From contig NZ_FOPH01000016.1 in assembly GCF_900113415.1 (NCBI RefSeq), forward strand, positions 1-64,000: 64,000 nucleotides of DNA, given 5' to 3'. The translations under genes were made by a program, and so were the position numbers. Numbering within the stretch: position 1 is the first letter of the stretch; every line of letters begins with the position of its first letter. Source of the DNA: Oribacterium sp. WCC10. GTDB lineage: Bacteria; Bacillota; Clostridia; Lachnospirales; Lachnospiraceae. Shown here piece after piece: positions 15,603 to 39,773 of the stretch. The notes beneath the pieces are model-generated. The model saw only the letters and a list, made by a program, of their open reading frames with translations, was not told where the DNA came from and made no database searches.

Positions 15603-15636
15603 CAAAAAGCGCCTTGGATAAATCCAAGACGCCTTT
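15603..15636 (-). terminator. Terminator of the ROK regulator / sulfoquinovose operon
   Basis: AAAGCGCCTTGGAT (15606-15619) pairs with ATCCAAGACGCCTTT (15622-15636). The minus strand ends GGCGCTTTTTG. It is the first terminator after the ROK stop (15728). The remaining 15398-15602 stretch holds amt upstream DNA with several short dyads (ATGTACGTTGTACAT, GATCGATC), but no gene. Confidence 0.85.
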
Positions 15637-15727: not shown

Positions 15728-16912
15728 TCATCTCAACTTTAGTATTTTGTCATTAAACACTATGGCCACGGCTCCTATAGAATCCTCGTGATCACTGATT
15801 GTTGATCTGCTGACAAAGTCTTCATCGAGCATAGGATACCGGCGTGTAAAAACATTTTTGAAATTGCTCTTTATATAGTCTATATCAAAAAGTTTTCCGT
15901 AATAAATTATATTATCAGGAGACAGCACAACTGAGACATTGTAAAGTGCCTGAGCAAGCATCTCCATGATGCCGTCTAAAACCGATTCGACTCCGGGATC
16001 CTGAAATGAGCACCATTCGTATATGTTCTGTTCTTCTACCCTCTGTATGTCCCCCGCAAAATGTTCCCATAGTACAGGAGTTACACTCTCAGAAAACATA
16101 GACCTGACTTTATCCGTGATAGCACCTACTGACACTACGGATTCAAGCGTATGGCTATGGTTGTCTATGATGATATGTCCAAGTTCTGAAGTCCTTCCGT
16201 CCTGATTGCTATAGACCTTATTATTGATAGCGATGGAAGATCCTAAACCCGGGCCCCACTTGACGAAAACAAAATTACCTTTTTCTCTGCCGGCACCATA
16301 AATAAGCTCTGCCATTGCAAATGCATTAACATTGTTCTCAACCACAACCGGCAGACAGAGTTTCCTCTCCAGCATCTTCTTGACGGGGATAGGAACATCC
16401 CAGATGTTGTTTCCGTCAGACTCCCGCAGATTCTCCTTTAGGCCATATCCAGGCATGGTGACACCAACACCAAGGAAATCATCCGGTCCGATAGAGATGC
16501 TGTCCATAAGTTCATAGACTGTGTCCACGATCTTTTGGAGATATGTCTCCGGAAGCGTACCGGTGTCAGTTGTTATGGCTTTTTTCAGGATACATCTACC
16601 CCGAAGATTATTGATTGAAATCACAGTCTGATTTCGTTCAATGCATATCCCAAGAATGTTTGTGAAATCCTCATCCAGTCCTATGCGGATCTTTTTGCGA
16701 CCCACATGAGCTTCCTCTTCCATCTCACCGTTTTCCTTGAGAATACCTATCTCCAGAAGTTCATTACTGATCTGCGTCACAGCAGCTGCCGTAAGTCCCA
16801 GTTCGGTAGCGATATCCTTCCTTGCCATATCACCCTTGTCGTTCAACAAACGGATGATTTTACTTCTGTTTTCTGATTTAACATCGTTGCTGTTTATTCC
16901 TGAGTATTTCAT
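15728..16912 (-). CDS. ROK-family transcriptional regulator without the usual zinc cluster
   Basis: 394 residues. The N-terminal winged helix (about 12-75: NRSKIIRLLNDKGDMARKDIATELG, LTAAAVTQISNELLEIGIL) binds DNA. The rest is a ROK sugar-kinase fold, with GPGLGSSIAINNKVYSNQDG, ELGHI and a conserved GVGVTMPG-like loop. ROK repressors usually carry CxCGxxGCxE after GH, which binds zinc and is needed for shape. Here the segment is HIIIDNHSHTLESVVS with no Cys at all. It is the last gene of the sulfoquinovose gene set, after a 128-bp repeat, and ROK operators are AT-rich dyads of TTAGTT-type like the one at 27946. A role as the operon's sugar-responsive repressor is likely but inferred. AGGAGACGGCATG fixes the start. 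Confidence 0.87.
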   Translation of the reverse strand: MKYSGINSNDVKSENRSKIIRLLNDKGDMARKDIATELGLTAAAVTQISNELLEIGILKENGEMEEEAHVGRKKIRIGLDEDFTNILGICIERNQTVISINNLRGRCILKKAITTDTGTLPETYLQKIVDTVYELMDSISIGPDDFLGVGVTMPGYGLKENLRESDGNNIWDVPIPVKKMLERKLCLPVVVENNVNAFAMAELIYGAGREKGNFVFVKWGPGLGSSIAINNKVYSNQDGRTSELGHIIIDNHSHTLESVVSVGAITDKVRSMFSESVTPVLWEHFAGDIQRVEEQNIYEWCSFQDPGVESVLDGIMEMLAQALYNVSVVLSPDNIIYYGKLFDIDYIKSNFKNVFTRRYPMLDEDFVSRSTISDHEDSIGAVAIVFNDKILKLR

Positions 16913-17072
16913 GCCGTCTCCTATACGTTACAAGAGAAATATGAAAACGAGCCCTGTACACCTTTTGACGCAAATATCTGAAACTGTAACAGCCTAATTG
17001 CATCTGTTCGCCATTGTAGCATGGGATTTCAAGCTCTACCATGTACAAAACGCTTGAAAACACGTGCTTTTT

Positions 17073-17204
17073 TTTAGGGAAACGCTGAATAAAACGTTTC
17101 CCCTGCCGGATTTTCGGCTCAAAGCATCAATTTCTTTTGAAAATTCGTGCCCCCGACGCCGGAGTTTCTGAGGAAATGCTGATAATAACAGCATTTCCTC
17201 AGTA
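17073..17204. repeat. Palindromic intergenic element, copy B
   Basis: Same order of parts as copy A (4905-5032): GGGAAACGCTGAATAAAACGTTTCCC, CCGGATTTTCGG, GAAAATTCG, GACGCCGGAG, then a near-perfect hairpin GAGGAAATGCTG / CAGCATTTCCTC. The outer GGAAACGCTG and CAGCATTTCC are inverted ends. It begins 4 bp past the sftI-like stop codon and separates that gene from the ROK regulator. The 16913-17072 remainder shows only the ROK upstream region. Confidence 0.75.
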
Positions 17205-17208
17205 TCGG

Positions 17209-18549
17209 TCAGAATCTGCACACCTCAACACCAAGCATATTACCGAGTGCTTCGAGTTCTTCTGCACAGCTTCCGTATGTCACAACATAGTGTGGCTCCC
17301 AACCGCCCTTTACTGCATCTTCAACTATCTTCCTGGAATTATTATCAGTCTTTACAACTATAGATGTTCCAAGGAACTGCTTTGGTTTATCGAGTACAGC
17401 TCCTTCTGCGATAAAGAATCTGAACTTTCCGTTCTCATCTCTTCCAACACGGAAGATGGTTGCATGCTCCGTACTTTCGCATCCAAACTCCATCGTAGGT
17501 CCAAGTTTTCTGTTTGGATGTACACCAACGGCTGCGCCGGTATCTTTTCTTGCGAGATCACAGGATGCCATTCCGCAATGCCAGAATGTAATTGTGTTTT
17601 CACCCTCATCCAGTGAAACAGGATCACCAAAGAAGCATGACTTTCCTGTAAGCTTTGATCCTATGTACATTGAAAGAGCACCGTATGTATCGGATTCACA
17701 GCTTGCAGATACTCCCAGTGAATTGAGAAGGGAAAGAACCGCGCAAACAGGTGTGCCGAAATCAGTGAAGAAATCCGGCCAGCAGCGTGAAGAAATCGCA
17801 CCGATATGATTCTCTGTTACATAGTCCTTGTACGCCTTGTAGAGCTTTGCAAAATCCTTAACATTCTTTTCAGGGGTGTTATCAAGTCCAACGATCTTCT
17901 TTTTAGCATCATTGAGATACTCTTCACACTCTTCGTCTGTATATGACTTTGCCTTATTGATGAGTTCTCTTGATTCGATAGAATCGAGAGTTGCACCAAA
18001 TACTGAGGTAATGTCACAGTCCAGTGCTCTTCCGAAGCCAAAGCCCTGAGGAGTATGTCCGATAGACACAAGCTTCAAGCCCTTTAAGTCTTTCTTTACT
18101 CTTGCAGCATTGATAACAGCTCTTGCCTTGTCAATGATTTCCTGCTCATCAGGGGCACCGAACATATACTCAAACTTTGAGTCTTTTCTGAATGCCTTGA
18201 TACTGTTTGCCGCAGAAAATGCTCCTGTCAGTGAATTCAGTCTGAGTCTTCCGCCGTCGATAACAGGCTCTCTCAAAGTCCAGAGAAGAATAGGACATGA
18301 GAATTTCCTCAGGACCTCAGTAGCATATGCAGCATTTGCGAATGTTATATTCTGAAGAACTATAAGGTCAGGATTTATCTTATCCAGAAACTCATCAAGA
18401 AGGTCTATGGACAGAAGCATTTGCTCCGGAACCACAACATCCTCTGTGATGTCTCTAAGCATCTTTACTGACTTATCAAACTGAACCTGTGCACTCTCTA
18501 AATGAAATGTGCCTACTCCTATAGGTACATATGCTACCTGAAAACCCAT
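17209..18549 (-). CDS. sftI: Fucose/arabinose-isomerase-like enzyme, probable sulfoquinovose isomerase (SftI)
   Basis: 446 residues of the L-fucose/L-arabinose isomerase superfamily: an N-terminal Rossmann-type half and a C-terminal beta half with EFGCESTEHATIF and GGWEPHYVVTYGSCAEEL near the end. In sulfo-TAL gene sets an isomerase converts sulfoquinovose to 6-deoxy-6-sulfofructose, the substrate of the transaldolase. Placement in an operon with a sulfoquinovosidase, transaldolase and SLA reductase makes this the natural candidate. From its sequence alone it could be an isomerase of another hexose. The start follows a GGAAAAGAGGAAATAAC ribosome site. The transporter gene tctA-like is upstream, with a complete MITE inserted between them. 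Confidence 0.75.
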   Translation of the reverse strand: MGFQVAYVPIGVGTFHLESAQVQFDKSVKMLRDITEDVVVPEQMLLSIDLLDEFLDKINPDLIVLQNITFANAAYATEVLRKFSCPILLWTLREPVIDGGRLRLNSLTGAFSAANSIKAFRKDSKFEYMFGAPDEQEIIDKARAVINAARVKKDLKGLKLVSIGHTPQGFGFGRALDCDITSVFGATLDSIESRELINKAKSYTDEECEEYLNDAKKKIVGLDNTPEKNVKDFAKLYKAYKDYVTENHIGAISSRCWPDFFTDFGTPVCAVLSLLNSLGVSASCESDTYGALSMYIGSKLTGKSCFFGDPVSLDEGENTITFWHCGMASCDLARKDTGAAVGVHPNRKLGPTMEFGCESTEHATIFRVGRDENGKFRFFIAEGAVLDKPKQFLGTSIVVKTDNNSRKIVEDAVKGGWEPHYVVTYGSCAEELEALGNMLGVEVCRF

Positions 18550-18574
18550 TGTTATTTCCTCTTTTCCAATTACT

Positions 18575-18702
18575 TGATGTAAGTGTCAAAAGTACCAAAT
18601 CATATACTTGCACTTTGATTTGAGACTTTATGACCCGCCCGAACACAAATGTGTGCGTTGGCGCTAATCAGTGAGTGACAAATACTTTTGACACTCACGT
18701 CA
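18575..18702. mobile_element. Complete 128-bp MITE with terminal inverted repeats and target duplication
   Basis: The left end TGATGTAAGTGTCAAAAGTA is the inverse of the right end TACTTTTGACACTCACGTCA (18 of 20 match). TTACT (18570-18574) is repeated directly after the element (18703-18707), or TTACTT if one shared T is counted. It has no coding capacity. It sits between tctA-like and sftI inside the operon. The remaining 18703-18879 stretch has only fragments (ACGCCGGACGG) reminiscent of the other repeat family. Confidence 0.85.
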
Positions 18703-18879
18703 TTACTTAAGTTTATGTCTGTTCAATTTTTCCGGAATGATGACCTGAAAACTGCATTTCTTCACCCATTAGGGGGCAGACGCCGGACGGAATAATCCCT
18801 GCTCGAATCTATCCGGTCAATTAAGTATGAAGTTCATTTGGAACCTTTACTTCTGTAAAGTGTCATCACTCACTCCCCT

Positions 18880-20436
18880 TCAACAGGCCTCTGCTGAAAG
18901 ATCCTCATGCATCTTTTCGATTTCTTCAGCCTGCTCTTCGTTGAGGGCTTCAACCTTCTTGTTGATTCTGAGCATTGAGCCAACCAATACAACTGTGATG
19001 AGAAGGATGATGAGAGATATAGGTCTCTTGAAGAAAATGAAGTAATCTCTGTCATAAGACATCATAGCTGTTACAAAGTTTGTCTCCATGATCTTCGCAA
19101 GGATCAGTCCGAGAAGAAGCGGAATGGCATCTATCTCCATGATCTTAAGAAGATAGCTGAATACCAGAAGTACGGCACAGAATACCATCTCCTTGAAGTT
19201 TCCTGTTCCTGCAAATGCTCCTGCGAAGCAGAAAAGCATGATAGCCGGTGCAAGATAGGTGTACTTAACCTGTACAACTTTGGCTACAACTCGTGTCATA
19301 ACCTTACCGAGCGGCCAAAGGAAAAGGTTTGCAACGAAACATCCAACGATGATTGTGTACGCCTGAAGTGCCTGCTTTGTGAACATGTTAGGACCCGGCT
19401 GCATACCATGAAGGATAAATGCTCCGAGAAGGAGGGCTGTAACACCGTCTCCCGGGATACCCATGGTCATGAGAGGAATCATTGCTGAACCTACGACTGC
19501 ATTGTTGGAAGACTCTGCTGCTGCGATACCTTCGAGAGAACCCTTGCCGAACTTCTCAGGATGCTTTGAAAACTGTTTAGCCTGGTTATAGCAAAGGAAC
19601 TGCGCAACACCACCGCCTACGCCCGGCATAGCGCCGATAAATGAAGCGATAATGGTTGAAATGGCTGTTGCCGGAAGTATTGACTTCGCCTCTGAAAGGC
19701 TTAATCCCTTCTTATCGATCTTATTGGCATCTTCCATCTTTCCGCCGTTTACCTTGAACTCGGCAAGCTTTCCAACAACCTGCTTAAGAGCAACAAGTGC
19801 GATCATTGCAGGAAGCATATCGATACCAAACTGAAGGATGGATACTCCAAATGTAAATCTTGAGACACCTGTTACGGCATCAACACCGATGCAGGCGATA
19901 AGTATTCCGAAAAGACCTGAAAGGATTCCCTTTGGAAGTGAGTTTCCGGATACACCTGCTAGAAGTGAGATTCCGAGGATTGCCATTGAGAAATATTCAA
20001 CTGAAGTAAACTTTGAAACAAATGCTGCGATAGGAGCTGCAAGAATAAGAAGCAGAAGTGCGCCGATGATACCACCAAATGATGAAGCAAAAAGTGAAGT
20101 ATCAAGTGCCTGAAGAACTCTGCCCTTCTTAGCCAGTGGATATCCGTCAAATGTTGTTGCGATAGCCGAGTTTGTTCCGGGCGTATTGAGTGTGATGGCA
20201 CTTATGGAACCGCCGTACATTCCGCCTACGTAAACAGCAAGGAGTGAAATGATGGCTGTACTCGGATCCTTGATTCCGTAAGTAAGCGGAAGGAACAGAA
20301 TGATTCCAAGTGTAACGCTGAGACCCGGTATACAACCGATGACCATACCCATGAGCATTCCGCCAAATATGAATGCCAGATTTCCTAATGTAAATACCGC
20401 AGCAAAAGCGGATGAAATATAATCAAAATAACCCAT
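18880..20436 (-). CDS. TTT-family transporter large membrane subunit (TctA-like)
   Basis: 518 residues, about 11-12 membrane helices. TctA marks are the conserved GGMYGGSISAITLNTPG segment (near 70-86) and the second repeat IGAMPGVGGGVAQFLCYN. It forms the channel of a tripartite tricarboxylate-type, binding-protein-dependent secondary importer in the cytoplasmic membrane. The open frame begins 6 bp earlier, but AAAGAGG lies only 1 nt from that ATG and 7 nt from the MGYFDY start, so the latter is chosen. It is 12 bp after tctB-like and in one operon with the sulfoquinovose genes. The likely substrate is therefore sulfoquinovose or a sulfoquinovosyl compound; that is inference from context. 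Confidence 0.9.
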   Translation of the reverse strand: MGYFDYISSAFAAVFTLGNLAFIFGGMLMGMVIGCIPGLSVTLGIILFLPLTYGIKDPSTAIISLLAVYVGGMYGGSISAITLNTPGTNSAIATTFDGYPLAKKGRVLQALDTSLFASSFGGIIGALLLLILAAPIAAFVSKFTSVEYFSMAILGISLLAGVSGNSLPKGILSGLFGILIACIGVDAVTGVSRFTFGVSILQFGIDMLPAMIALVALKQVVGKLAEFKVNGGKMEDANKIDKKGLSLSEAKSILPATAISTIIASFIGAMPGVGGGVAQFLCYNQAKQFSKHPEKFGKGSLEGIAAAESSNNAVVGSAMIPLMTMGIPGDGVTALLLGAFILHGMQPGPNMFTKQALQAYTIIVGCFVANLFLWPLGKVMTRVVAKVVQVKYTYLAPAIMLFCFAGAFAGTGNFKEMVFCAVLLVFSYLLKIMEIDAIPLLLGLILAKIMETNFVTAMMSYDRDYFIFFKRPISLIILLITVVLVGSMLRINKKVEALNEEQAEEIEKMHEDLSAEAC

Positions 20437-20448
20437 AATCATACCTCT

Positions 20449-20925
20449 TTAGATTATTCCCTTGAGTATTCCGGCAGGAAGATCCACATGGAACACATTC
20501 TGGAAAAGGAAGTAAACTATGACCACCATAGCCAGTGTATAAATGTAGATAAGCGGTTTTCTTTCGCCCTCATACCACTGGATACCGCAAAAGATAAGCA
20601 TTCCGGCAGGAATAAATCCAAGTATCCTGGTAAGTGCCACAAACACTACCAGTGCGCCTATAAGAAGCAGCTCTTTTCTTTCATTTTCCCAGGCGAATTC
20701 ATAAATATGCTCTTTATGGAAAACGAGACTTTGTACCAGAAGTATGATGGAACAGATAAGTATGCCAACCAGACATATACCGGGTATTATTCTTGGGCTT
20801 GGCGCTCCCGAATCCCACATGGGAAGTCGCACCTGTGTGGGCATTACCAGAAGCATGATGACCGAAAACAGTCCCATTACGATACCCGCCAGAAGGTTGG
20901 TTCTGATTTTAATTGTTTTTTTCAT
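20449..20925 (-). CDS. TTT-family transporter small membrane subunit (TctB-like)
   Basis: 158 residues with four predicted membrane helices and the family feature GAPSPRIIPG near residue 43. The frame is open further upstream, but GGAG lies 8 nt before the MKKTIKIR start. The upstream extension would also run through a strong hairpin (20954-20983), so the internal start is taken. It works with the TctA-like and TctC-like subunits on either side. Confidence 0.88.
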   Translation of the reverse strand: MKKTIKIRTNLLAGIVMGLFSVIMLLVMPTQVRLPMWDSGAPSPRIIPGICLVGILICSIILLVQSLVFHKEHIYEFAWENERKELLLIGALVVFVALTRILGFIPAGMLIFCGIQWYEGERKPLIYIYTLAMVVIVYFLFQNVFHVDLPAGILKGII

Positions 20926-20953
20926 AAGAAAATCTCCAAAATAGACCAAAACA

Positions 20954-20983
20954 GCCCGGCACTGCACAAAGGCAATGCCGGGC
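20954..20983 (-). terminator. Attenuator-type hairpin between binding-protein and membrane-subunit genes
   Basis: GCCCGGCACTGC (20954-20965) pairs with GCAATGCCGGGC (20972-20983), a 12-bp stem with one G-U. It is followed on the minus strand by TGTTTTGG. Such hairpins after solute-binding genes allow partial read-through and protect the upstream mRNA, so the binding protein is made in excess. Confidence 0.7.
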
Positions 20984-21046
20984 AGCTCTTAAGTTTTTAA
21001 CTTATTAATAATTCAATGAACAACTATTTATACCTGATAACCAGAA

Positions 21047-22153
21047 TCAGTTCTGACCGCTGAGAAGCTTGAAAGCCTCTACCGCTGCCTTACATGCATC
21101 CTCATAGTGCTGAACATCATCCTGTCCGTAGATCTCTGTATCGTTAAGCATGATGCTTGCAATGAAATCCTTGTACTCGTCTGTTGCCCAGACATCCTTT
21201 GCAACCTGAACGACTGCATCCTGCCACTCCTGAGATGCACCCTTACGTGTTGCAAGAGAACCGCCCGCAGGAAGGATTGACTTTGTATAGTCCTTAGAAG
21301 CATCAAGATCAGCTGCCATATCAGCGCCTGCAAGTGAAGGAACTGTTATATCGCCCTGAGGTCCCTTGAAACCTGTGAATGCCTTGTCAGAGAATGCAAG
21401 AACCGGAATAAGATTTCCTGCTTCAACATCTTCCTGTGCAGCCTGTGTTGTACCTACGAAACAATCAACTTCACCATCTGTGAGACCCTTCTTCTGAGCA
21501 GCACCACCGTCATAAGGTACTACCATTACCTTTCCGCCCTCCTGAGCAAGAAGTGAACCTAAAGCAAGATGTGGGTCTGAAAGAGGGTTTCCACCGGACA
21601 TCTTAAGTCCGCCGCTCTTTGCCTTCTCGATAAGGCCGCCAAGTGTCTGATCAGGTGTTGTGTAAAGGATCCAGGTTCTGTCGTCTACTGTTGCAAGTGG
21701 AAGGATCTCGCTTCTGTCGAAATCAACAACTTCTGTATTGAACTGCTTTCCGAGATCATGACGATAAGCTACACCGTATCCGTAAACGAGAAGATCTGTT
21801 GTGCTTGGATCTTCCTGTGTAAATGCTGTTGCTGCTGCAAATCCGTCACCGCCTGTCTGCTGCTCAACGATGAAGTTGTACTCAGGATGAGTCTTTGTTG
21901 CTACTTCTGCGAACTTTCTTGCGATGATATCTGCTGTTCCGCCTACGCCGTAAGGGCAGATAACCTTAACTGTCTCACCGCTTCCTGTTGCTGCCTGCTT
22001 TTCTTCAGCTTTTGTCTCTGCTGCTGATTCTGTCTTGGCAGCTTCTGTCTTGGCTGCCTCTGTTGCAGCTGAAGGTGCGCTTGAGCTGCCGCATGCAGCA
22101 AGTGATGCTGCCATTGCTGTTGCAAGGATTCCTGCCAATAACTGTTTTCTCAT
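21047..22153 (-). CDS. TTT-family solute-binding lipoprotein (TctC/Bug-like)
   Basis: 368 residues. Lipoprotein signal peptide with lipobox SLAAC (Cys21), then an Ala/Glu/Lys/Thr-rich linker to about residue 58. The Bug fold starts with VKVICPYGVGGTADIIAR, the canonical loop that cradles the ligand's acid group, and includes ADIIARKFAEV and a DVDCFVG-like strand. Carried on the outer membrane face, it delivers substrate to TctAB. TTT binding proteins commonly bind carboxylates. A sulfonated sugar would be a plausible anionic ligand here, but binding residues for sulfonate cannot be assigned by eye. A truncated repeat and 176 bp separate it from the upstream tauE-like gene. Confidence 0.9.
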   Translation of the reverse strand: MRKQLLAGILATAMAASLAACGSSSAPSAATEAAKTEAAKTESAAETKAEEKQAATGSGETVKVICPYGVGGTADIIARKFAEVATKTHPEYNFIVEQQTGGDGFAAATAFTQEDPSTTDLLVYGYGVAYRHDLGKQFNTEVVDFDRSEILPLATVDDRTWILYTTPDQTLGGLIEKAKSGGLKMSGGNPLSDPHLALGSLLAQEGGKVMVVPYDGGAAQKKGLTDGEVDCFVGTTQAAQEDVEAGNLIPVLAFSDKAFTGFKGPQGDITVPSLAGADMAADLDASKDYTKSILPAGGSLATRKGASQEWQDAVVQVAKDVWATDEYKDFIASIMLNDTEIYGQDDVQHYEDACKAAVEAFKLLSGQN

Positions 22154-22302
22154 AGTAACTTCCTCCTGTTTACCTATGTAAATATTTTTCTCGGTCTTAT
22201 GACCTTTTGATTTTTAAATTTAAGATGTTAATTTTCCTAAATACGCCTTATGCTCAATGATCTCGATACGGTGAGACTATGAATTGATATCCATACAGTC
22301 AT

Positions 22303-22335
22303 GGAAACGCTGAATTAATAAGTGGTTTCTCAGAA
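22303..22335. repeat. Truncated left stem of the 128-bp palindromic element
   Basis: GGAAACGCTGAATTAATAAGTGGTTTCTCAG matches only the first stem of copies A and B (GGAAACGCTGAATAAAACGTTTCC). It reaches into the stop codon region of the tauE-like gene. Confidence 0.45.
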
Positions 22336-23190
22336 TAAGAGCTTTATTCCCATCAGTAAGAGAAGAACAAATGTCACGATCATAAATGTATGCTGGCTCA
22401 TTCTCTTATAAAGCATTGAACCTATCTTCAGTCCTCCGAACAAAAACGGTGCTGCACATACTGTAGTAAGCATGAGCTTGACATCCCAATATCCTGATCT
22501 CAGATCATCCATAAGAACCAGAGTATTCAGAAATATCCAAACCGTCGATATGGTGGTTCTGAACTGATTTTTCTCCGGAATACGCTTTGCAAGATAGCTT
22601 ATGAGAAGCGGGCCTCCGCTGACAAAAATTCCATGAATCACTCCGGCTACCGGAAGCAGCAGACAGGATAATCCCGAAAAAGCCCTGCCCTTATCGCTTT
22701 TCTTCGCTTCGCTCTCCGTATCAACTTTCAAAGTCCCATTTATATCTGAATCTGTTTCAGCATCCGGCCTTTCTTTTTCCAATGCTTCTTCAGAATGAAC
22801 TTCACCTGACTTTTTTCCGGAGCCTGTCATAAGCTCCTTGATAAGCCCTTGTATCGATACTGCTATAACAAAAATGCCAAGCACCAGATAAAGCAGCTTT
22901 TCTTTTCCGAGAAGCATATCCTTAATGCATATTCCCGCCAGTATTCCGACAGACATTATGGCCACTATCTTCCACAATTCCTTCCATACTACATATTTCC
23001 TGTTTCCGAGAAATACATAGATTCCACTGAATAATCCAAGAATATTCAGTACCGGTTTTGCTACCGGGTACCCCACCAGCATGAGTCCGAAGGGCATGGC
23101 GAGAAGTGTTCCCGCAAAGCCTGTGACTCCATGCATGATGTGGGCGAGAAAAATATCAAGAAAGAAGTAAAGATAATTAGTACTAAGCAT
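22330..23190 (-). CDS. TauE/SafE-family membrane exporter, probable sulfonate exporter
   Basis: 286 residues with about seven to eight membrane helices in two halves. The N-terminal half begins DIFLAHIMHGVTGFAGTLLAMPFG (family repeat) and the second half has AGVIHGIFVSGGPLLISYLAKR. A charged loop (about 115-170, Glu/Asp/Lys-rich) connects them. TauE/SafE proteins export sulfite or small sulfonates and recur in sulfoquinovose gene sets as the exit for the C3-sulfonate end product. Here that would be 2,3-dihydroxypropanesulfonate (DHPS). The specific cargo is inference. It lies between the sulfoquinovosidase and the TTT importer. Confidence 0.85.
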   Translation of the reverse strand: MLSTNYLYFFLDIFLAHIMHGVTGFAGTLLAMPFGLMLVGYPVAKPVLNILGLFSGIYVFLGNRKYVVWKELWKIVAIMSVGILAGICIKDMLLGKEKLLYLVLGIFVIAVSIQGLIKELMTGSGKKSGEVHSEEALEKERPDAETDSDINGTLKVDTESEAKKSDKGRAFSGLSCLLLPVAGVIHGIFVSGGPLLISYLAKRIPEKNQFRTTISTVWIFLNTLVLMDDLRSGYWDVKLMLTTVCAAPFLFGGLKIGSMLYKRMSQHTFMIVTFVLLLLMGIKLLF

Positions 23191-23263
23191 CTGTGTTCCT
23201 TTTCAGCCCGTCTTTATGTTAATGTTAAGAATCTGCTTTATTGTGCCGGATACCTCGCTGCAA

Positions 23264-25270
23264 TCAACTGCGCCTGCCGTATTTATCAGTAATGTTTTCG
23301 AAAAGTTCTCTGTATCCGGAAGACTTTCTGTAAAATACAGGCGGAAATCCAAGTTCCGCATCTACAACATTTATGCCCTGACCGTAGCTTCGTCCTGTCC
23401 AGAAGTGAATCCACTCATCATCCGGAAGAAAAACTTCTCTCTCAGTCTTTCCGGCTTCATAAACCGGCGCTACCAGCACATCTCTTCCAAGGAGATATTC
23501 AAACTGCTCCGTATAGCAGCGTGGCTCATCATAATGAAGGAACAGCGGTCTCTGAACCGGAATTCCCTTTTCATGATTTTCCTTTACGGCATCCTTTGTG
23601 TACTGTGACATCTCTCTGTAAATATCTACAAGTCGTGCCATCCTTCTGATACCGTCTTCATCATCATAGAACTGATAACAGTCGTCCGGTCTGTTCCCCT
23701 CGTGAGTTCTCATAACAGGTGTAAATGCTGCCATCTCCGCCCATCTCATGAAAACTTCCTTGGTTCTGACATTGCCGAAAAGTGATGTATAACCACCAAT
23801 ATCGCTGTGACTTAATCCGCAGCCCATCATTCCCGAGCCTAACGCCGCTGAAATGACTGTGCATAAACCGTCATGTCTTGAGAAATCAACCGACTGATCT
23901 CCTGCCCAGAGAAGTGTGCAGTACTTTTGGCTTCCCGCAGCTCCTGCTCTCATGAAGTAAACTATCTTACCGAGGTTTCCCGTCCCGGAAACCGCTTCGT
24001 AATTGCATTTTGCCCAGAGAAGCGGCCAATGATTATGCTCAACCATAGCCTCTTTTCCGCTGTGAAGCACGATATCGTCAGTTGGAAGGTATTCACCGAA
24101 ATCCGCCATCCATCCGTCGATTCCTATGTCAATACTGTACTTCTTGATGATTCCCTTGAACCACTCGAAGGCTTCCGGGTTTGTAAGATCCACCGCACCG
24201 CAGTAGAACTCACCGAAATCCACAAGATATGTGGTACCATCGTGGCGCTTTGCGAAATATCCCTTTTCTTCGCCTTCTTTAAACAGCTCTCCGTCATTTA
24301 CAAGATATGGATTCACATAACCAAGGAATTTAATTCCCTTTTTGTGAAGCTCTGCTATCTTCTCAGGAAGATCCGGATACATCTCTTTGTGATAATGCCA
24401 GTCCCACTGAAGTCTCTTGCCGAAGCTTGTGATTCTCTTGCCGCACCAGTCCTGACACCAGATTCCCGAAAGCTTTACGCCTTTCTCACGTATCTTTTCC
24501 GCAAGTCCGAAGGACCTTTCATTTCCGCCCTGAACTCCGAAGATAAGTCCGTTATATACCCAGTCGGGAAGTTCAGGCTGTCTTCCGAAGTATGCTGTTT
24601 CCTTTAAAAGAAGTTCTTCAAAATCCTTTGCTGCCTCTATGCGTATAGAAGCGGGAACCTCCCAGATCTGAAGCTCATGGAACTCATCATTTCTGAAATC
24701 AAAATCAGCATAGGCTGTTGAATCAACATGGAGATAATATCTTTTTGATGAAACGAAGGTAGGCTCAGGATAGTTCGTATTGTAGTAGTCCCCTCCGGCC
24801 TTGTTCTCAACGTCCGATCTCCAGGTTACATATGTTGTTTTATCTCTGCCGACTCCCGGCTCTGATGTCCAAAGGGGGAAATGTCTCCCTCTAAGGTCAA
24901 AATAGGACATCTGCTCACCGCAGCCATAGATATGCTCATCCTTGTCGGCTGCGACTCTGAACCAGAACCTGTTTATGGCCGGATCATGATTCTCAAATTT
25001 TATTTCCGCACACTCACCCTTTAGGGTAACTGTGGCTGTTATCTTTCCTTCAAAATCAAGGACAGTGGTTCCGTCTTTTTCTTCCGAAGAAGTAAGTTTC
25101 AAAGGAACTTTATCTTCCACATAATCCTCGATCTTGAAATTTCCTCTGTACATATCAACAGATTCTTTTCCATGACCTATGTAGATCATGGGCTTATCCG
25201 AATCTGCGGAAAGTATGATTCTGTCACCTTCTGTAAGTTTTAATGTCTGACCAATAATCTGTAATTCCAT
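23264..25270 (-). CDS. sftG: Sulfoquinovosidase, GH31 (YihQ family)
   Basis: 668 residues. It hydrolyses alpha-sulfoquinovosides such as sulfoquinovosyl glycerol from plant sulfolipid. The GH31 catalytic pair is Asp390 (GWMADFGEYLP, nucleophile) and Asp458 (WAGDQSVDF, acid/base). The sulfonate pocket of E. coli YihQ (Arg301, Trp304, Tyr508) is preserved as Arg286 and Trp289 (GKRLQWDW) and Tyr494 (HSDIGGYTSLF). Other close YihQ matches are FMRAGAAGSQKY, RTHEGNRP and LLGRDVLVAPV. These residues separate sulfoquinovosidases from ordinary alpha-glucosidases, so the call is specific. There is no signal peptide, so it acts in the cytoplasm on imported glycoside. It lies in the operon between DUF4867 and tauE-like. 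Confidence 0.92.
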   Translation of the reverse strand: MELQIIGQTLKLTEGDRIILSADSDKPMIYIGHGKESVDMYRGNFKIEDYVEDKVPLKLTSSEEKDGTTVLDFEGKITATVTLKGECAEIKFENHDPAINRFWFRVAADKDEHIYGCGEQMSYFDLRGRHFPLWTSEPGVGRDKTTYVTWRSDVENKAGGDYYNTNYPEPTFVSSKRYYLHVDSTAYADFDFRNDEFHELQIWEVPASIRIEAAKDFEELLLKETAYFGRQPELPDWVYNGLIFGVQGGNERSFGLAEKIREKGVKLSGIWCQDWCGKRITSFGKRLQWDWHYHKEMYPDLPEKIAELHKKGIKFLGYVNPYLVNDGELFKEGEEKGYFAKRHDGTTYLVDFGEFYCGAVDLTNPEAFEWFKGIIKKYSIDIGIDGWMADFGEYLPTDDIVLHSGKEAMVEHNHWPLLWAKCNYEAVSGTGNLGKIVYFMRAGAAGSQKYCTLLWAGDQSVDFSRHDGLCTVISAALGSGMMGCGLSHSDIGGYTSLFGNVRTKEVFMRWAEMAAFTPVMRTHEGNRPDDCYQFYDDEDGIRRMARLVDIYREMSQYTKDAVKENHEKGIPVQRPLFLHYDEPRCYTEQFEYLLGRDVLVAPVYEAGKTEREVFLPDDEWIHFWTGRSYGQGINVVDAELGFPPVFYRKSSGYRELFENITDKYGRRS

Positions 25271-25370
25271 ACTGCCCTCTTTTGTTTTCTATATTGAAGC
25301 GTTTATCTGTCACGAAGGCTGCGCCGCCGCTTCACAGTGACGGCTGCACCCCGTGATCATGGCAAAAGTT

Positions 25371-26042
25371 TCAATAATGGAGTTCCTTATTTGGTCCGAT
25401 GACTCCTGTAACCGCTCCCTGTTTTACCAGTGGTTCTCTCTCAGGATGACAGATGACCCATTTGTTTCTCTGAAGAAGCAGCTCGCTTTCCTTGTCTACC
25501 GGCGAAAGCTTCTCAAGCGGTGTGTTGGTTCCCTTTGGCAGGATCACAACTCCCTTGAATCCTTCATCCGTCACTCTGCAGGGTGAAAGGTGAAGAGTTG
25601 TCTCATACATCTCTATCACTGTGCCCTTCGGCACGAAGAATACCTGCACATCCTTAATGTCATAGGTATTATCCTTTATGTCCCAGACATGTCCGAGACA
25701 AAGCATAAAGTCTGTAACGGCAATGTTTATCTCGCTGCCCTTGTGATACTCGAAACCGTTGTATGTGGTGTTTCTGCCGTTGCAGTATCCGATTTCTATA
25801 GGCATCCCTCCGTACAGAAGATTCTCAACCTTCTCTTTTACGGCCAGGTTCTCCATTTCGGGAACCGATGCTACATAGACATTGCCCTGCTCCGGAATAG
25901 GAGTTTCTTTTTCCATATAAGCGATAACTTCCGAAAAATCGTATCCTGTGACTACACGTCCGTAGGTCTTGAAGGCTTCCGGGTCAAGAACTGACTTTAC
26001 AGAAACATCATTAACTTCATTTAAATGCTTTAAAAGCTCCAT
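25371..26042 (-). CDS. DUF4867 family protein of the sulfoquinovose operon
   Basis: 223 residues. I recognise the DUF4867 family from GYDFSEVIAYMEK, EGNVYVASVPEMENL, IGYCNGRNTTYNGFEYHKGSEINIA and FVPKGTVIEMYETTLHLSPC. The beta-rich middle with HKGSEIN and TLHLSPC resembles a cupin-type fold with possible metal or substrate ligands (His, Glu, Cys). The function is unknown to me. Genes of this family sit beside sulfoquinovose transaldolase genes in gut Firmicutes. Candidate roles, all inference, are an SQ mutarotase, an isomerase of a C3-sulfonate, or a sugar-acid side enzyme. Here it lies between SLA reductase and sulfoquinovosidase, in the same direction and 94-100 bp from each. Confidence 0.75.
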   Translation of the reverse strand: MELLKHLNEVNDVSVKSVLDPEAFKTYGRVVTGYDFSEVIAYMEKETPIPEQGNVYVASVPEMENLAVKEKVENLLYGGMPIEIGYCNGRNTTYNGFEYHKGSEINIAVTDFMLCLGHVWDIKDNTYDIKDVQVFFVPKGTVIEMYETTLHLSPCRVTDEGFKGVVILPKGTNTPLEKLSPVDKESELLLQRNKWVICHPEREPLVKQGAVTGVIGPNKELHY

Positions 26043-26136
26043 AATTATTCATAGATAAACGGTCATCTCCCCTGTCGTTATTTTCCCCGTGGATCAACCA
26101 CCGCCATCTTTCATTCCCCTTTTACAGTTACTCTCT

Positions 26137-27000
26137 TTATGCCTTTTCAGATCTTACAACCTTGATGGTCGCCGAGAAGTCTTCCTTGGCAAATCCCATC
26201 TCCATAGCCTTGTCGTAAACTCTTACTACATTCATCTCACCCGGCATAGGAAGTCCCTTCTCCTCAGCAAGCTTCTTGCAGATGTTCACATCCTTATACA
26301 TGTTCTCGATGGAGAAGGCTGTTGCGAAATCATTCTTCTCGATAACGTCCTTCTTGCTGTCCAGATAGAAGTTCTGTCCGCCGCCGTAGGAAATAGCTGT
26401 TGCGAAAGTCTGAATGTCTATTCCGCAAACTGCTGCAAGGTTTGAAACTTCATTGACACCGTTCTGAATCTGTCCGACAAGTGCATTGTGAAGGATCTTC
26501 ATGGTGATTCCGGTTCCGTTCTCACCCATACGGATGATGTTCTCACCCATGTAGGAAAGGATAGGACGAACTGTATCATAAAGTTCTTCGTCACAACCAA
26601 CGTAGATTCCAAGCTTTCCTGCGATTGCTGCAGGCTTTGACTTAACTACGGGAGCATCTGCGAACTGAGCGCCTGTTTCCTTAACCATCTTTGCGATCTC
26701 AACTGAAACGCTTGGGTCGATGGTACTCATATCGATGCAGATCTTGCCTTTTCCAAGTTTAGGAAGGATTTCGGTATAAACCGCTCTTGAATGCTCTGAC
26801 TTGGGAACCATGGAAATAATCACATCCGATTTCTCAGCGAGGTCAACATTGTTCTCAGCAGGAACTGCTCCCAGCTTTGCAAGTTCTTCAACCTTTGCTT
26901 TTGCAAGATCGAAACAATAAACTGTGTCGTCGTGCTTTTTTACTATATTTGCACACATTGACTCGCCCATGATTCCGAGTCCGATAAAACCAATCTTCAT
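26137..27000 (-). CDS. Beta-hydroxyacid dehydrogenase family, probable 3-sulfolactaldehyde reductase
   Basis: 287 residues from the MKIGFIG start. The frame is open 32 codons further, but GGAGGAAGC directly precedes this ATG. The Rossmann motif is FIGLGIMGES (5-14), the substrate loop ADAPVVKSKPAA (115-124) and the catalytic Lys168 lies in GITMKILHNA. E. coli YihU, the SLA reductase of the same family, has a basic residue (Arg123) in the loop that follows APV. Here Lys120/Lys122 take that place, whereas 3-hydroxyisobutyrate dehydrogenases have SGG. That supports a sulfonate substrate. It would reduce SLA to DHPS with NAD(P)H, regenerating cofactor during fermentation. It is the second gene of the operon, after the transaldolase. 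Confidence 0.85.
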   Translation of the reverse strand: MKIGFIGLGIMGESMCANIVKKHDDTVYCFDLAKAKVEELAKLGAVPAENNVDLAEKSDVIISMVPKSEHSRAVYTEILPKLGKGKICIDMSTIDPSVSVEIAKMVKETGAQFADAPVVKSKPAAIAGKLGIYVGCDEELYDTVRPILSYMGENIIRMGENGTGITMKILHNALVGQIQNGVNEVSNLAAVCGIDIQTFATAISYGGGQNFYLDSKKDVIEKNDFATAFSIENMYKDVNICKKLAEEKGLPMPGEMNVVRVYDKAMEMGFAKEDFSATIKVVRSEKA

Positions 27001-27161
27001 TGCTTCCTCCAAAGATCTTTTTCTTTTAGTTGTCAGATCTTCTATTCTCTGATTTTCTCCGATGATAATATCTTTTGTTTTTATATGTCCCGTCAATCAG
27101 CATTACTTCCTAACTTCATACCGATCGGCAGGCTCCTGTTACCTATCTCAGATTTATGAGA

Positions 27162-27848
27162 TTACTCTGTTTTTGTGTTATCCCATGCATCGCAGAAGGT
27201 TCCGATTCCCTGAGTTGTGTATGCGTGGTGCTGAGCGCTCTTGTAGATTGCAAGACCTGCTGTGATAATGTCTGCACCTGCTACTGCGCAGTCAACCATC
27301 TGCTTTGGTGAACGGAGTGCTGCACAGATGATCTGTGTCTTTCCGTAGAAGCCATAGTTCTTATAGATGTCAACGATGTCCTTGATGTACTGTCTGCAGT
27401 CTTCGCCGTTGTCCTCTTTCCAGCCGATGAAAGGTGATACAAAAAGTGAACCGTTCTTAGCTGCGAAAATAGCCTGCGCAGGAGCAAATACAAGTGTAAG
27501 GTTTGTTCTGATGCCTTCCTTCTCAAGCTGTCTTGCTGCTGCTACACCAGCCTCTGTTGCAGGAATTTTGATAGCAAAGTTTGGAGAAACCTTTGCATAC
27601 TTTCTTGCTTCAGCTACCATATCCTCTGTCTTGTCAAGATGTGGATTGATCTCGATGGAAACAGGGAATTTGTCGATACCCTCAAGGCCGTTTTCCTTAA
27701 TCCAGTTTGCGATATCTGTGATTGCTGTTACGAATGGCTTTCCGCTAAGCATGATGTGCTTAGGGTTTGTTGTTACACCGTCAATTCCGAATGTCTTGTA
27801 CGCATAGTCGATCTCATCTAATTTTGCACTATCAAGAAAAAACTTCAT
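27162..27848 (-). CDS. sftT: Transaldolase family, probable 6-deoxy-6-sulfofructose transaldolase (SftT)
   Basis: 228 residues, the short transaldolase/fructose-6-phosphate-aldolase type. Marks are Asp6 (FLDSAK), TTNP (26-29) and the Schiff-base Lys94 (FAIKIPATEAG). In the sulfo-TAL pathway the enzyme takes the dihydroxyacetone part of sulfofructose, releases 3-sulfolactaldehyde and passes three carbons to glyceraldehyde 3-phosphate, giving fructose 6-phosphate. Operon partners (sulfoquinovosidase, SLA reductase, isomerase-like enzyme) make that assignment much likelier than a pentose-phosphate transaldolase. It is the first gene, right after the promoter. AGGAGGAAGT precedes the ATG. Confidence 0.87.
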   Translation of the reverse strand: MKFFLDSAKLDEIDYAYKTFGIDGVTTNPKHIMLSGKPFVTAITDIANWIKENGLEGIDKFPVSIEINPHLDKTEDMVAEARKYAKVSPNFAIKIPATEAGVAAARQLEKEGIRTNLTLVFAPAQAIFAAKNGSLFVSPFIGWKEDNGEDCRQYIKDIVDIYKNYGFYGKTQIICAALRSPKQMVDCAVAGADIITAGLAIYKSAQHHAYTTQGIGTFCDAWDNTKTE

Positions 27849-27945
27849 TACTTCCTCCTATTTTACGAGAACCCTTCCCCCCCTTTAAGTCTGTTTTTTT
27901 AGGTTAGGGCTTGTCTCGTCTGATGCTGTATTTGGTTCGCATCAA

Positions 27946-27966
27946 TTAGTTAATTCAATTAATTAA
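27946..27966. promoter_or_regulatory. Candidate operator for the ROK regulator at the sulfoquinovose promoter
   Basis: A 21-bp dyad (TTAGTTAATT, central C, AATTAATTAA) with one mismatch. It overlaps the expected transcription start, 6 bp downstream of the -10. Its TTAGTT...TTAA form resembles operators of ROK/XylR-type repressors. Assignment to the ROK gene of this operon is inference. Confidence 0.5.
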
Positions 27967-27971
27967 TTAGT

Positions 27972-27999
27972 ATTATAGTGCGACTTGCACAATTGTAAA
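27972..27999 (-). promoter_or_regulatory. Promoter of the sulfoquinovose operon
   Basis: TTTACA (27994-27999), a 16-bp spacer and a perfect TATAAT (27972-27977) on the minus strand. The leader to sftT is about 115 nt. The rest of 27849-28359 holds the dyad, the GH32 operon terminator and a shared repeat block. Confidence 0.65.
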
Positions 28000-29841: not shown

Positions 29842-30833
29842 ACTTTTCCCTTCACTTCCGTCGACATTCCCCTCTTTAATTTTACAGGCAGTGTAATGAC
29901 TTTTTTCTCCGGATTCTTTCCTTCTATTCTCATCTCAAGCTGTTTGAAGCACTCTCTTGCAAGTTCCTTGATGGGCTGCTCTATAACGGTTATGGTAGGA
30001 TATGACATCTCTATAATATCTGTTCCGTCATAGGAAACTATCTTCAGATCCTCAGGTATGCGCTTTCCTGACTTCAGGGCTTCCTTTTCGATATTGAGTG
30101 CTATAAGATCTGTGCCAAACACTCCGTCTATATCTCCATGCCTTTCAAAAAAATCTTTACACAGATTTTTGTTATACTCATAGCCCAGGCTGTTCCACCT
30201 GGTGTAGACATTGATCACCTCAACGCCCCTGTCTCTCAGTACCTTTTCAAAAGTATCATGCCTTATGACAAACGGTGCCGAGGTATTTTCTTCATTTCTG
30301 AATTGAGCTACTTTTCTGCAGCCTGCCGCCAACAGCTCTTCAGCAGCCATCCTTCCTCCGGCTTCATGATCCGATCTCACGCACGGAATCATATCTCCCA
30401 GATCTCTGTCAAGTGCTACAACCGGACGTTCAACCGCTGCATACTGCTCAATGTCCAATGTATGAGAGGCCACCACTATCCCATCCACCAGCTTTTCTTT
30501 GAGCATCTTCAGGTACTGATACTCATAATTCTCTTTAAACCAGGTGTTGCAGAGCATCATCCTGTATTTATGCTCTGCAAATATCTCCTCCAGTTCATTT
30601 ACAAAGGCGGAAAAAAACGGATGATCTATCTCAGGGATAATAACCGCGATTATACCGTTTTTATTGCGGTACAGATTTCTGGCTACAGCATTGGGCGTAT
30701 AGTCAAGCTCCCGAATAGCATTTTCTATGCGTTCTCTCGTCTCTTCCTTTACGTAGCCCGTATCATTAATGACACGCGATACGGTGGCAACTCCAACCCC
30801 TGCCAGCTTTGCCACTTCCTGTATGGTTGCCAT
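29838..30833 (-). CDS. LacI-family repressor of the sucrose-type operon
   Basis: 331 residues. The N-terminal LacI helix-turn-helix is TIQEVAKLAGVGVATVSRVIN, followed by the hinge helix (YTPNAVARNL) and a periplasmic-binding-like core (IAVIIPEIDHPFFSAFVNELE). It lies inside the operon between the permease and GH32 genes. Two identical LacI-type palindromes at the operon promoter (34176 and 34251) are its probable targets, giving autoregulation. AAGGAGTAAGGAGCT precedes the ATG. Confidence 0.93.
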   Translation of the reverse strand: MATIQEVAKLAGVGVATVSRVINDTGYVKEETRERIENAIRELDYTPNAVARNLYRNKNGIIAVIIPEIDHPFFSAFVNELEEIFAEHKYRMMLCNTWFKENYEYQYLKMLKEKLVDGIVVASHTLDIEQYAAVERPVVALDRDLGDMIPCVRSDHEAGGRMAAEELLAAGCRKVAQFRNEENTSAPFVIRHDTFEKVLRDRGVEVINVYTRWNSLGYEYNKNLCKDFFERHGDIDGVFGTDLIALNIEKEALKSGKRIPEDLKIVSYDGTDIIEMSYPTITVIEQPIKELARECFKQLEMRIEGKNPEKKVITLPVKLKRGMSTEVKGKV

Positions 30834-34787: not shown

Positions 34788-35945
34788 TCACAGCGCCTTT
34801 TTATAAAGCATCACACAATCCTTAAGTGTGGTCTGGCGCGGGTTAGCCATGATGTTAGCCTGTCCCTTCATGGCATCTTCTGCCATAACATCGACCTTAT
34901 CTTCTGTTACCCCAACATCCGAAAGCTTCTCCGGTATGCCGAGCTGCCTGTTAAGCTTTTTAAGTTCATCCACAAGCATCATAGGAACGAAGTTCTCAAC
35001 AGGTCCCTTTTCTTCTCTGATGTATCTGTAGATCTTCTCATACTTTCCGTCATGGTCTGCGATAGCGTTGAACTCAGCCACATAAGGCAGGAGGATGGCA
35101 TTGGCAACACCGTGAGCCACATGGAAATGTCCGCTTACCGGGTGGCTTAATGCATGAACGTCGCCGAGTCTTGCCCATGCAAATGATATTCCCGCGAAAT
35201 TGGACCCAAGCATCATGGCACTGGCAGCCTCAGAGTCCTTGCGGTTGGCGGTGAATCTGCGGAGATTCTTTCCGATAAGCTCCATAGCCTTTTCTGCCAT
35301 GGCATCTGAGAACGGTGTGGCATTGTTTGAAACGTAGGCCTCCATGGCGTGAATAAGGGCATCGATACCGCAGGAAGCTGCTACAGATGCAGGTGCGGTC
35401 ATGATGAGCTCCGGATCAAGGATGGCAAACTTCGGAATCTGCTCATAACTGAAAACAGACATCTTGAAGTTTGTTATCTCGTCAGTAATTACCGCTGAAG
35501 CCGTAACTTCACTTCCCGTTCCCGCTGTTGTGGGAACCGCAATGATAGGTGTGATAGGTCCGGGAACCTTGCCTGTTCCCACATACTGCTGTATCTCACC
35601 GCCGTATGTTGCAAGAACACCGACGGCCTTGGCAACATCCATAGGACTTCCGCCGCCGAGAGCAACGATGCAGCCTGCGCCGGACTCCTTGTACTTTGCA
35701 GTTGCATCTTTTACACAGGCAACTGTAGGGTTTGGAACCACATCAAGAAAACTTTCGCAGCTGATGCCTGCTGCCTCTATAAGATCAACTACCTTCTTAA
35801 CTACACCTATGGACTCGAGTCCTCTGTCAGAAACCAGAAAAACCTTATCTGTCTTCATCTCTGACTTCACAAGCCCCGGTATCTCCCTGAGGCTCCCCAT
35901 TCCGAATTTTATAGTCTGCGGTACTTTAAAATCAAAATCCTTCAT
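34788..35945 (-). CDS. Iron-containing alcohol dehydrogenase, probable aldehyde reductase of the diol-dehydratase operon
   Basis: 385 residues from MKDFDF. The frame opens four codons earlier, but no ribosome site precedes that ATG, while GGAGAATGAG precedes this one. NAD-binding GGGSPMDVAKAVG and the TTAGTGSEVT motif are present. Metal ligands are Asp and His in GIDALIHAMEAY, then His in ALSHPVSGHFHVAHG. Type III alcohol dehydrogenases beside glycyl-radical diol dehydratases reduce the aldehyde that the dehydratase makes: 3-hydroxypropanal to 1,3-propanediol, propanal to propanol, or 3-sulfopropanal to 3-hydroxypropanesulfonate (HpfD). The sequence alone does not decide between these. Confidence 0.9.
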   Translation of the reverse strand: MKDFDFKVPQTIKFGMGSLREIPGLVKSEMKTDKVFLVSDRGLESIGVVKKVVDLIEAAGISCESFLDVVPNPTVACVKDATAKYKESGAGCIVALGGGSPMDVAKAVGVLATYGGEIQQYVGTGKVPGPITPIIAVPTTAGTGSEVTASAVITDEITNFKMSVFSYEQIPKFAILDPELIMTAPASVAASCGIDALIHAMEAYVSNNATPFSDAMAEKAMELIGKNLRRFTANRKDSEAASAMMLGSNFAGISFAWARLGDVHALSHPVSGHFHVAHGVANAILLPYVAEFNAIADHDGKYEKIYRYIREEKGPVENFVPMMLVDELKKLNRQLGIPEKLSDVGVTEDKVDVMAEDAMKGQANIMANPRQTTLKDCVMLYKKAL

Positions 35946-36133
35946 CTCATTCTCCATTAATCAATTCCCAAAGCTCCGCGCTTTATCCAATGATACGCGG
36001 AAAATCAGGAACCATTCCATAATATTTATTTTTATAATCAGCTATAATCTCTCACCTGAAAGAATCATACATTTGTCATAAGCTTCCGGATGTATCCAGG
36101 AAAAAAGCTTCTGAAAGTCCTATATTTCATAAA

Positions 36134-38732: not shown

Positions 38733-39683
38733 TCAATTCTTTGCTCCGGTTCCAACCGTGCAATTGATTCCTCTCTCTTCAAAGTAATCTCTGATTTTCT
38801 CTACCCGCTTTTGAAACGCCGGCCTGTTAAATCTCAAATCCTTCATGGGGTATTCCCGCCCCAGAGATTCATACTTTTCTATTCCCAGACGCATGTAGCT
38901 AAGAAGCTGCAGAACCTTTACATGGTTCTGTAATTCCTCCAGTATGAAATCTGCTGTTTGGGAAATGTTTTCCATGTCGTCGTTTATGTGTGGTATCACA
39001 GGAATGCGAAGTATCAGGTCATCTCTCGATTCCGACAGTATTTTCAGATTCTCGAGTATCAATCTGTTGTCGACTCCGGTAAAGGTTTTGTGTTTCACCG
39101 GGTCCATCATCTTGATGTCTGATATCAGGATGTCAGTGTAGGGGAGTACCTTTTCTATTTCCGTCCGGCCTGCGAAGAATGTAGATTCAAGGCAGGTGTT
39201 AATGCCTTCCTCTCTGCACTCTTTAAAAAGCCCGGCAACGAAATCCGCCTGCATCAACGGCTCGCCACCGGAAACCGTAACTCCGCCTCTGGATTCTTCA
39301 TAGTAACCTCTGTCACGAATTATGATATCCATACATTCGGAAACAGACATTTCCTTTCCCCAGACCTTGATGGCATCAGATGGACACCCTTCTACACAGG
39401 ACATACACCCGGTACATTTTTCTCTGTCAAGACCGGATAACCTGTTTCTCGTAAAGTGTAAAATGTCTTTTTCAGGACATACGTCAAGACATTCACCACA
39501 CTGTTTTTTTCCGATACATCTTTTACTGTAAAGTCCCGGTTCAGGACTCTTCCTCTGACTCTCGGGATTGCTGCACCACTTGCACTTAAGAGGACAGCCC
39601 TTCAGAAAAATCTCGGTTCTGAGCCCCGGTCCGTCATGTATGGTGAACCTCTGAACATTGAACACTACTCCGCTTTTATTCAT
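38733..39683 (-). CDS. Glycyl-radical enzyme activase (radical SAM)
   Basis: 316 residues from MNKSGVVFNVQRF. The frame opens 12 codons earlier at a GTG, but the ATG with AAAGGATGGTGAG upstream is better. The radical SAM cluster motif is GCPLKCKWCSNPES (CxxxCxxC), then a ferredoxin-like insert with two 4Fe-4S motifs (CIGKKQCGECLDVCPEKD and CTGCMSCVEGCPSDA), then GGVTVSGGEPLMQ for SAM binding. It abstracts hydrogen from the glycine of the dehydratase encoded just downstream. It is the first gene of the operon; a perfect dyad lies about 90 bp upstream. Confidence 0.93.
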   Translation of the reverse strand: MNKSGVVFNVQRFTIHDGPGLRTEIFLKGCPLKCKWCSNPESQRKSPEPGLYSKRCIGKKQCGECLDVCPEKDILHFTRNRLSGLDREKCTGCMSCVEGCPSDAIKVWGKEMSVSECMDIIIRDRGYYEESRGGVTVSGGEPLMQADFVAGLFKECREEGINTCLESTFFAGRTEIEKVLPYTDILISDIKMMDPVKHKTFTGVDNRLILENLKILSESRDDLILRIPVIPHINDDMENISQTADFILEELQNHVKVLQLLSYMRLGIEKYESLGREYPMKDLRFNRPAFQKRVEKIRDYFEERGINCTVGTGAKN

Positions 39684-39773
39684 GAACTCACCATCCTTTC
39701 GGAAACTTCCTTTAAACACGTTAAATTTTAGGAGATTTTAAAGAGCTTTAATATTACCCGTATTTCTTATTTC

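Follow-up and report, generated by a model that had tools for sequence, protein, structure and literature searches.

Sulfoquinovose (SQ) is the sulfur sugar of green plants. Among the described users of SQ, Clostridium symbiosum takes the sulfofructose-transaldolase (sulfo-TAL) pathway according to two accounts that both cite Frommeyer et al. 2020 for it (PMC8397734, PMC11489063), and an extended sulfo-TAL pathway with HpfGHD is known in Enterococcus gilvus (PMC11489063). Growth of E. rectale on both SQ and sulfoquinovosyl glycerol (SQGro) is stated in PMC11968277. Here we describe a related locus of Oribacterium sp. WCC10, situated in the first 64,000 nucleotides of contig NZ_FOPH01000016.1 (the window; contig C6 of our dataset, genome size 3.64 Mb). 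The window encodes a sulfo-TAL operon that contains a tripartite tricarboxylate transporter (TTT) of the TctCBA type, and DHPS (2,3-dihydroxypropane-1-sulfonate) dehydratase genes further upstream. We consider it probable that the locus serves an extended sulfo-TAL catabolism, in which TctCBA would take up SQ and/or SQGro and the hpf genes would provide a route to 3-hydroxypropanesulfonate (3-HPS). Sulfo-TAL and its hpf extension are already known, whereas an importer of this type was not found described for SQ.

The operon comprises ten genes, all on the minus strand, running from 27848 to 15728 in the order SftT, 3-sulfolactaldehyde (SLA) reductase, DUF4867 protein, sulfoquinovosidase, TauE-type exporter, TctCBA, SftI and ROK regulator. 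Open reading frames (ORFs), Pfam and NCBIfam searches returned the families that had been named in the first-pass annotation, with TctC slightly below its Pfam cut-off. The transaldolase SftT (27162..27848; alignment of 15 sequences) matched BmSF-TAL (8bc3) best among solved structures, with 281 bits, followed at 279 and 272 bits by two sister entries whose only name is "Transaldolase", and the first transaldolase outside the BmSF-TAL group scored 154 bits. The sulfo-TAL assignment of the first-pass annotation is borne out by this comparison, in which a known sulfofructose transaldolase and not other transaldolases came closest. Schiff-base Lys94, noticed earlier, is Lys in all 80 named relatives; a second transaldolase, 40% identical to SftT, is encoded elsewhere in the genome. 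SftT is 100% identical to its counterparts in Oribacterium sp. P6A1, Lachnospiraceae bacterium JC7 and Oribacterium sp. UBA4274, and the nearest SftT loci belong to Oribacterium and other Lachnospiraceae, in agreement with the anaerobic host that had been proposed.

SftI, the likely SQ isomerase (17209..18549, PF02952), had the SftI equivalog NF048012 as its sole NCBIfam match (E 5e-123). The putative SLA reductase (SftR/YihU-like; 26137..27000) was assigned from Pfam, residues and linkage in relatives; translation most likely starts from ATG 27000, 32 residues into the listed ORF with its TTG start. Its V-K-S-K aligned to S-G-G-T of 2-hydroxymethylglutarate dehydrogenase 3cky, which agrees with the earlier remark that Lys120/122 replace SGG, and K120 aligned to R123 of YihU, a position that we take to be a sulfonate-binding or catalytic site. 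Of 65 relatives read, 64 have K-S-K or K-S-R, and in the other the first K is unreadable. SftT, reductase and SftI occurred together in 60 of the 80 named SftT loci; the other 20 were cut by contig ends or had no partner. In 13 of these 80 loci, SftT-like genes (72-78% identity) had no sft reductase match in the available stretch (L094, L097, L110, L117 and L121, 20.7 kb each; also L087, L088, L114, L122, L124, L128, L130 and L147), and these may be orphan transaldolases or parts of dispersed pathways. The protein of SftX/SqvB type (25371..26042) matched DUF4867 (PF16161) with 260 bits.

The GH31 sulfoquinovosidase (SftG/YihQ; 23264..25270) had its best solved match in 6PNR, which is E. rectale SftG (PMC11968277). 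The GH31 of locus L050 is identical to 6PNR over its first 160 residues and 69% identical to the window enzyme, in further support of the sulfo-TAL assignment. R286, W289 and Y494, the sulfonate residues of the first-pass annotation, indeed aligned to E. coli YihQ R301, W304 and Y508, and D390 and D458 to D405 and D472; the YihQ positions are presumably sulfonate-binding or catalytic. Together with Q247 and Q273 the enzyme has the complete set, nucleophile and acid/base Asp included, whose sulfonate-binding part is named QQRWY. A literature search for the GH31 motif names found no paper. No signal peptide was seen by eye and the enzyme seems to be located in the cytoplasm; the importer should therefore carry glycosides (SQGro) as well as SQ.

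The putative importer consists of the binding lipoprotein TctC (21047..22153), TctB (20449..20925, PF07331) and TctA (18880..20442, PF01970, 437 bits). TctA and TctB passed Pfam, and TctC was 1.3 bits short (25.7 against a cut-off of 27.0). The TctC N-terminus carries a lipoprotein-type signal by eye, and in a profile search the alignment of 17 TctC sequences matched TphC and a terephthalate-binding protein at 1e-11. The 17 best PDB chains for its AlphaFold model (mean pLDDT 82.9) were all of TctC/Bug type. Invariant in the 17 sequences were, among others, Y130-R131-H132-D133, D157-D158-R159-T160-W161 and S186-G187-G188-N189. Comparison with relatives most likely sets the TctB start at 20925, not at the GTG at 20967. 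A rapidly built tree of 45 TctA, for which the program warned of long branches, set 23 TctA of the sft kind apart as a clade of their own, the separating branch having full support.

The order-wide survey covered 392 genomes, with at most three TctA candidates scored per genome. TctA of at least 60% identity was present in 10 genomes, the next match being at 43%, and nine of these ten had SftT compared with 36 of 392 overall (hypergeometric 1.6e-9, kinship ignored). In eight genomes TctA and SftT share a contig and lie no more than about 15 kb apart. A TctA search at E 1e-110 in a phylum sample of 398 genomes recovered nothing beyond the own genome and one match at 39%.

Importer genes of the 60 loci with all three core genes were distributed as GPH alone in 33, TTT alone in 15, both in one (L076), a sodium-solute symporter (SSS) in two and none seen in nine, while their exporters were TauE in 35, DASS/CitMHS in 11, none seen in 14 and both in none. 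"None seen" stands for no match to the queries; L084 was so counted, yet a diverged MFS_2 carrier is encoded upstream of its sftT. The DASS/CitMHS-type carrier found in place of TauE, e.g. L077:8272-9699, is a candidate alternative sulfonate exporter. Importer type changed at least seven times on the core tree (68 rows including the window and seven loci beyond the named set, with L076 taken as TTT and importer-less rows uncounted). An exporter, TauE or DASS, was present in 15 of the 16 TTT loci. Since TTT alternates with GPH and SSS and coexists with TauE or DASS, it appears to stand in for sugar-type importers and not for exporters. We then searched the 16 TTT genomes for other importers, counting orthologues from 60% identity upwards and using G379 to control for SSS: 14 of them had no orthologue of SSS or of the GPH of L077 type, the L098-type GPH being outside this search. 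The SSS orthologue was found only in G039 and the L077-type GPH orthologue only in the genome of L072, with an internal stop; neither was found in the window genome or that of C. symbiosum. Co-occurrence with SftT and alternation with GPH and SSS thus favour TctCBA as the likely importer of the sulfo-TAL locus, as the first-pass annotation had it.

Importer and glycosidase types were also associated. The QQRWY-type sulfoquinovosidase was present in 16 of 16 TTT and two of two SSS loci among the 60, and 33 GPH-only loci had another GH31 type in 30 cases and no GH31 seen in three. Across the 80 named loci, this second type (e.g. L077:4556-6628, L098:12928-14856) had Gln in place of Arg301 in all 34 matches (33 QQQWY, one EQQWY); sulfoquinovosidase-type enzymes had Arg in 19 of 19 readable matches, two more being partial. 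A tentative reading, to which we give well below even chances, is that sulfo-TAL bacteria swap importer and glycosidase modules for different sulfolipid fragments, either TTT or SSS with the QQRWY enzyme or one of two GPH types with the QQQWY GH31, and that this TTT is the first tripartite importer of a sulfonated sugar or glycoside. The pairing is not strict, as L076 has both modules, and this reading is weakened by L084, where a QQRWY-type enzyme is paired with a different MFS_2 carrier, and by E. coli, where YihQ is paired with the MFS_2 carrier YihO.

The operon had been called complete, and its ten genes were confirmed, but the gene set runs on past 27999 to hpfHGD (39719 to 34788, minus strand). 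HpfH, the activating enzyme of DHPS dehydratase (38733..39719), and HpfG, the glycyl-radical DHPS dehydratase itself (36134..38620), passed the NCBIfam models NF048008 (520.8 bits, cut-off 500) and NF048009 (1538 bits, cut-off 1000). HpfG is closest to glycerol dehydratase 1r8w among solved structures (631 bits) and 71% identical to a glycyl-radical enzyme within the sft cluster of L181 (genome G071). The iron alcohol dehydrogenase at 34788..35957 passed no curated model (best 331.6 bits, cut-off 550) and is likely HpfD, the 3-sulfopropionaldehyde reductase, from its position 3' of hpfG, where such a gene also follows in L068-L071, L051, L054, L055 and L092. DHPS is perhaps not the end product, because its dehydratase genes lie upstream, and an extended pathway to 3-HPS is predicted from gene content.

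Linkage of hpf to sft varies among relatives. In two loci titled Oribacterium, L070 and L071, 293 bases separate the end of hpfH-hpfG-hpfD from sftT; hpfGD precedes sftT in L092; and in L051, L054, L055 and L061 the sft cluster has hpf genes inside it or next to it. L181:2999-14238 is compact, with TauE, hpfH, hpfG, iron alcohol dehydrogenase, sftI, ROK and tctCBA in a row, and combines an extended sulfo-TAL set with a TTT. A five-gene ABC-LacI-GH32 cassette separates the two sets in the window and L068, and other ORFs do so in L069. Order-wide, HpfG (E up to 1e-250) was found in nine of 392 genomes, six of them with SftT (hypergeometric 2.7e-5, kinship ignored).

From these assignments we infer the reactions in Oribacterium sp. 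WCC10, the TTT cargo and the end product as follows. The TctC lipoprotein would capture SQ and/or SQGro for uptake by TctAB, probably by ion symport; GH31 would free SQ, which SftI would convert to sulfofructose. SftT would transfer the C3 part of sulfofructose to glyceraldehyde-3-phosphate. The products would be sulfolactaldehyde, which the reductase would turn into DHPS under re-oxidation of NADH, and fructose-6-phosphate, available to fermentation. HpfG, once activated by HpfH, could dehydrate DHPS to 3-sulfopropionaldehyde, and its reduction to 3-HPS by HpfD would be a second NADH sink. TauE would export the sulfonate, with the ROK protein as regulator.

Several results weigh against this extended locus with TTT uptake. 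With 411 bits SftI stays below its curated cut-off (700). The reductase reached 142.9 bits on the SLA reductase model (cut-off 348), less than on the 3-hydroxyisobutyrate model (192 bits, cut-off 291.6), so that both assignments lean on linkage. TctCBA also occurs with no sft genes nearby: in G039 (L180) it lies on another contig than sft, beside an apparent FGGY kinase from ORF reading, in a genome that has the SSS orthologue as well, and in G164 (L179), 76% complete, TTT and HpfG were present and SftT was not found. HpfG stood without SftT in three of its nine genomes. Furthermore, E. clostridioformis YL32 has its sft and hpf sets at different places, and PMC12330013 reports that 3-HPS was not observed.

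Such points give some room to an ordinary sulfo-TAL pathway that ends at DHPS, with the hpf genes serving external DHPS or idle on SQ, which we regard as possible though clearly the less probable outcome. It would fit the cassette between hpf and sft in the window, the formation of DHPS only by strain YL32 with both sets (PMC12330013) and the lack of an HpfG match in 11 of the 16 named TTT loci, L107 included, some of these stretches being cut; against it stand the hpf genes directly before sftT in L070 and L071, those preceding it in L092 and those inside or beside the sft cluster of four further loci. That TTT imports some other acid, e.g. citrate or a sulfonate of three carbons, and that SQ uses a different carrier such as the CUT1 ABC system at 30926-34213, appears rather unlikely to us. 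TTT systems carry mostly carboxylates according to PMC5812351, G039 keeps its TTT apart from its sft genes, and the nearby CUT1 binding protein matches SmoF, albeit weakly (E 5e-6, last of 56 matches). However, the CUT1 genes are grouped with LacI and GH32 and, among the 16 named TTT loci, turned up in L068 alone, and TTT alternates with sugar importers, not with exporters. Degradation of a non-sulfonated sugar by pentose-phosphate-type or aldolase-type enzymes would accord with the reductase and DUF4867 families, which occur in other sugar pathways too, but is very improbable given a SftT much closer to BmSF-TAL than to other solved transaldolases, the second transaldolase of the genome, the sulfonate residues kept in GH31 and the hpf linkage in relatives. 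The extended sulfo-TAL locus with TctCBA uptake thus remains our preferred reading.

Other features of the operon concern export and expression. The TauE/SafE-type protein (22330..23190; PF01925, 80.5 bits, cut-off 32.6) probably exports a short sulfonate, and the ROK-family protein (15728..16912; PF00480 with a winged helix-turn-helix) is a likely regulator of the locus. A single promoter for the whole operon, as first proposed, is plausible: the promoter-like site TTTACA-16-TATAAT (27972..27999, minus strand, 11 of 12 matches) is kept in the four nearest relatives, L068-L071, but such sites occur in the region at about chance frequency (26 found, 23.8 expected), and sftI and the ROK gene lie 330 and 296 bases behind their upstream neighbours. 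Terminator-like hairpins on the minus strand lie 3' of the ROK gene (15605..15636, 14 pairs) and in the tctC/tctB gap (20954..20983, 12 pairs). Several relatives show, by eye, hairpins of differing sequence in the latter gap, and a hairpin there could raise TctC relative to TctBA.

In the surroundings, the CUT1 ABC-LacI-GH32 cassette (28360-34213), present in L068 and not in L070/L071, looks like an inserted fructoside module. Directly upstream of hpfH, 39961-44492 encodes a formate dehydrogenase alpha-type protein (passing TIGR01591) together with an NAD(P)-binding protein of 609 aa as its partner; the 901-aa formate dehydrogenase had no match in L070 or L071, and any connection with the hpf route, which would consume NADH, is conjecture. 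The ORF at 13628-15397 looks, by eye and without family search, like an ammonium transporter that carries a PII-like domain at its C-terminus. L089, a metagenome-assembled genome titled Treponema sp., has the complete ten-gene TTT-type cluster in unchanged order, which may reflect inter-phylum transfer or misbinning.

Compared with known systems, E. gilvus resembles the window in having sulfo-TAL genes together with HpfGHD, and differs by its sugar transporter SqvU, HpfE and HpfXYZ (PMC11489063), whereas the window importer is a TTT; no HpfXYZ-like genes were seen among listed ORFs of at least 150 aa in 31000-46000 of the window. The same paper states that Bilophila wadsworthia, which used 3-sulfopropionate as electron acceptor, did not use 3-HPS in this way, so that product choice affects downstream H2S formation. 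As for the transporter, SlcHFG imports sulfolactate (PMC5812351, PMC10507020) and a TTT of Vibrio sp. C42 alginate oligosaccharides (PMC13390454). Both are tripartite like the window TTT, with a sulfonate or an acidic sugar as cargo, and differ in that no sulfonated sugar is reported for them and that the sft TctA is on its own branch. The cargo proposed earlier would be unusual for a TTT only in part, as publication of sulfolactate and alginate-oligosaccharide uptake reduces the surprise. No TTT for SQ was found in the literature among the matches listed, Frommeyer et al. 2020 and supplementary files being outside the search, and the one paper combining SQ and "tricarboxylate transporter" has its TTT as a putative sulfolactate importer. 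The SQ/SQGro importers of SmoFGH-type ABC and YihO-type GPH are likewise encoded in sulfoglycolysis clusters and belong to families unrelated to TTT.

The E. rectale and C. symbiosum sft clusters share with the window SftT, SLA reductase, SftX (DUF4867), SftG, the TauE-type exporter and SftI. L050, with the E. rectale-type GH31, differs by SSS in place of TctCBA, and the hpf genes of the window were not found in L050 or L107. The latter, C. symbiosum ATCC 14940, matches the window in all ten genes and in their order, TctCBA included, so the arrangement occurs in a studied species. TctCBA is one nameable importer candidate in organisms including C. symbiosum, at sft loci where importers are exchanged.

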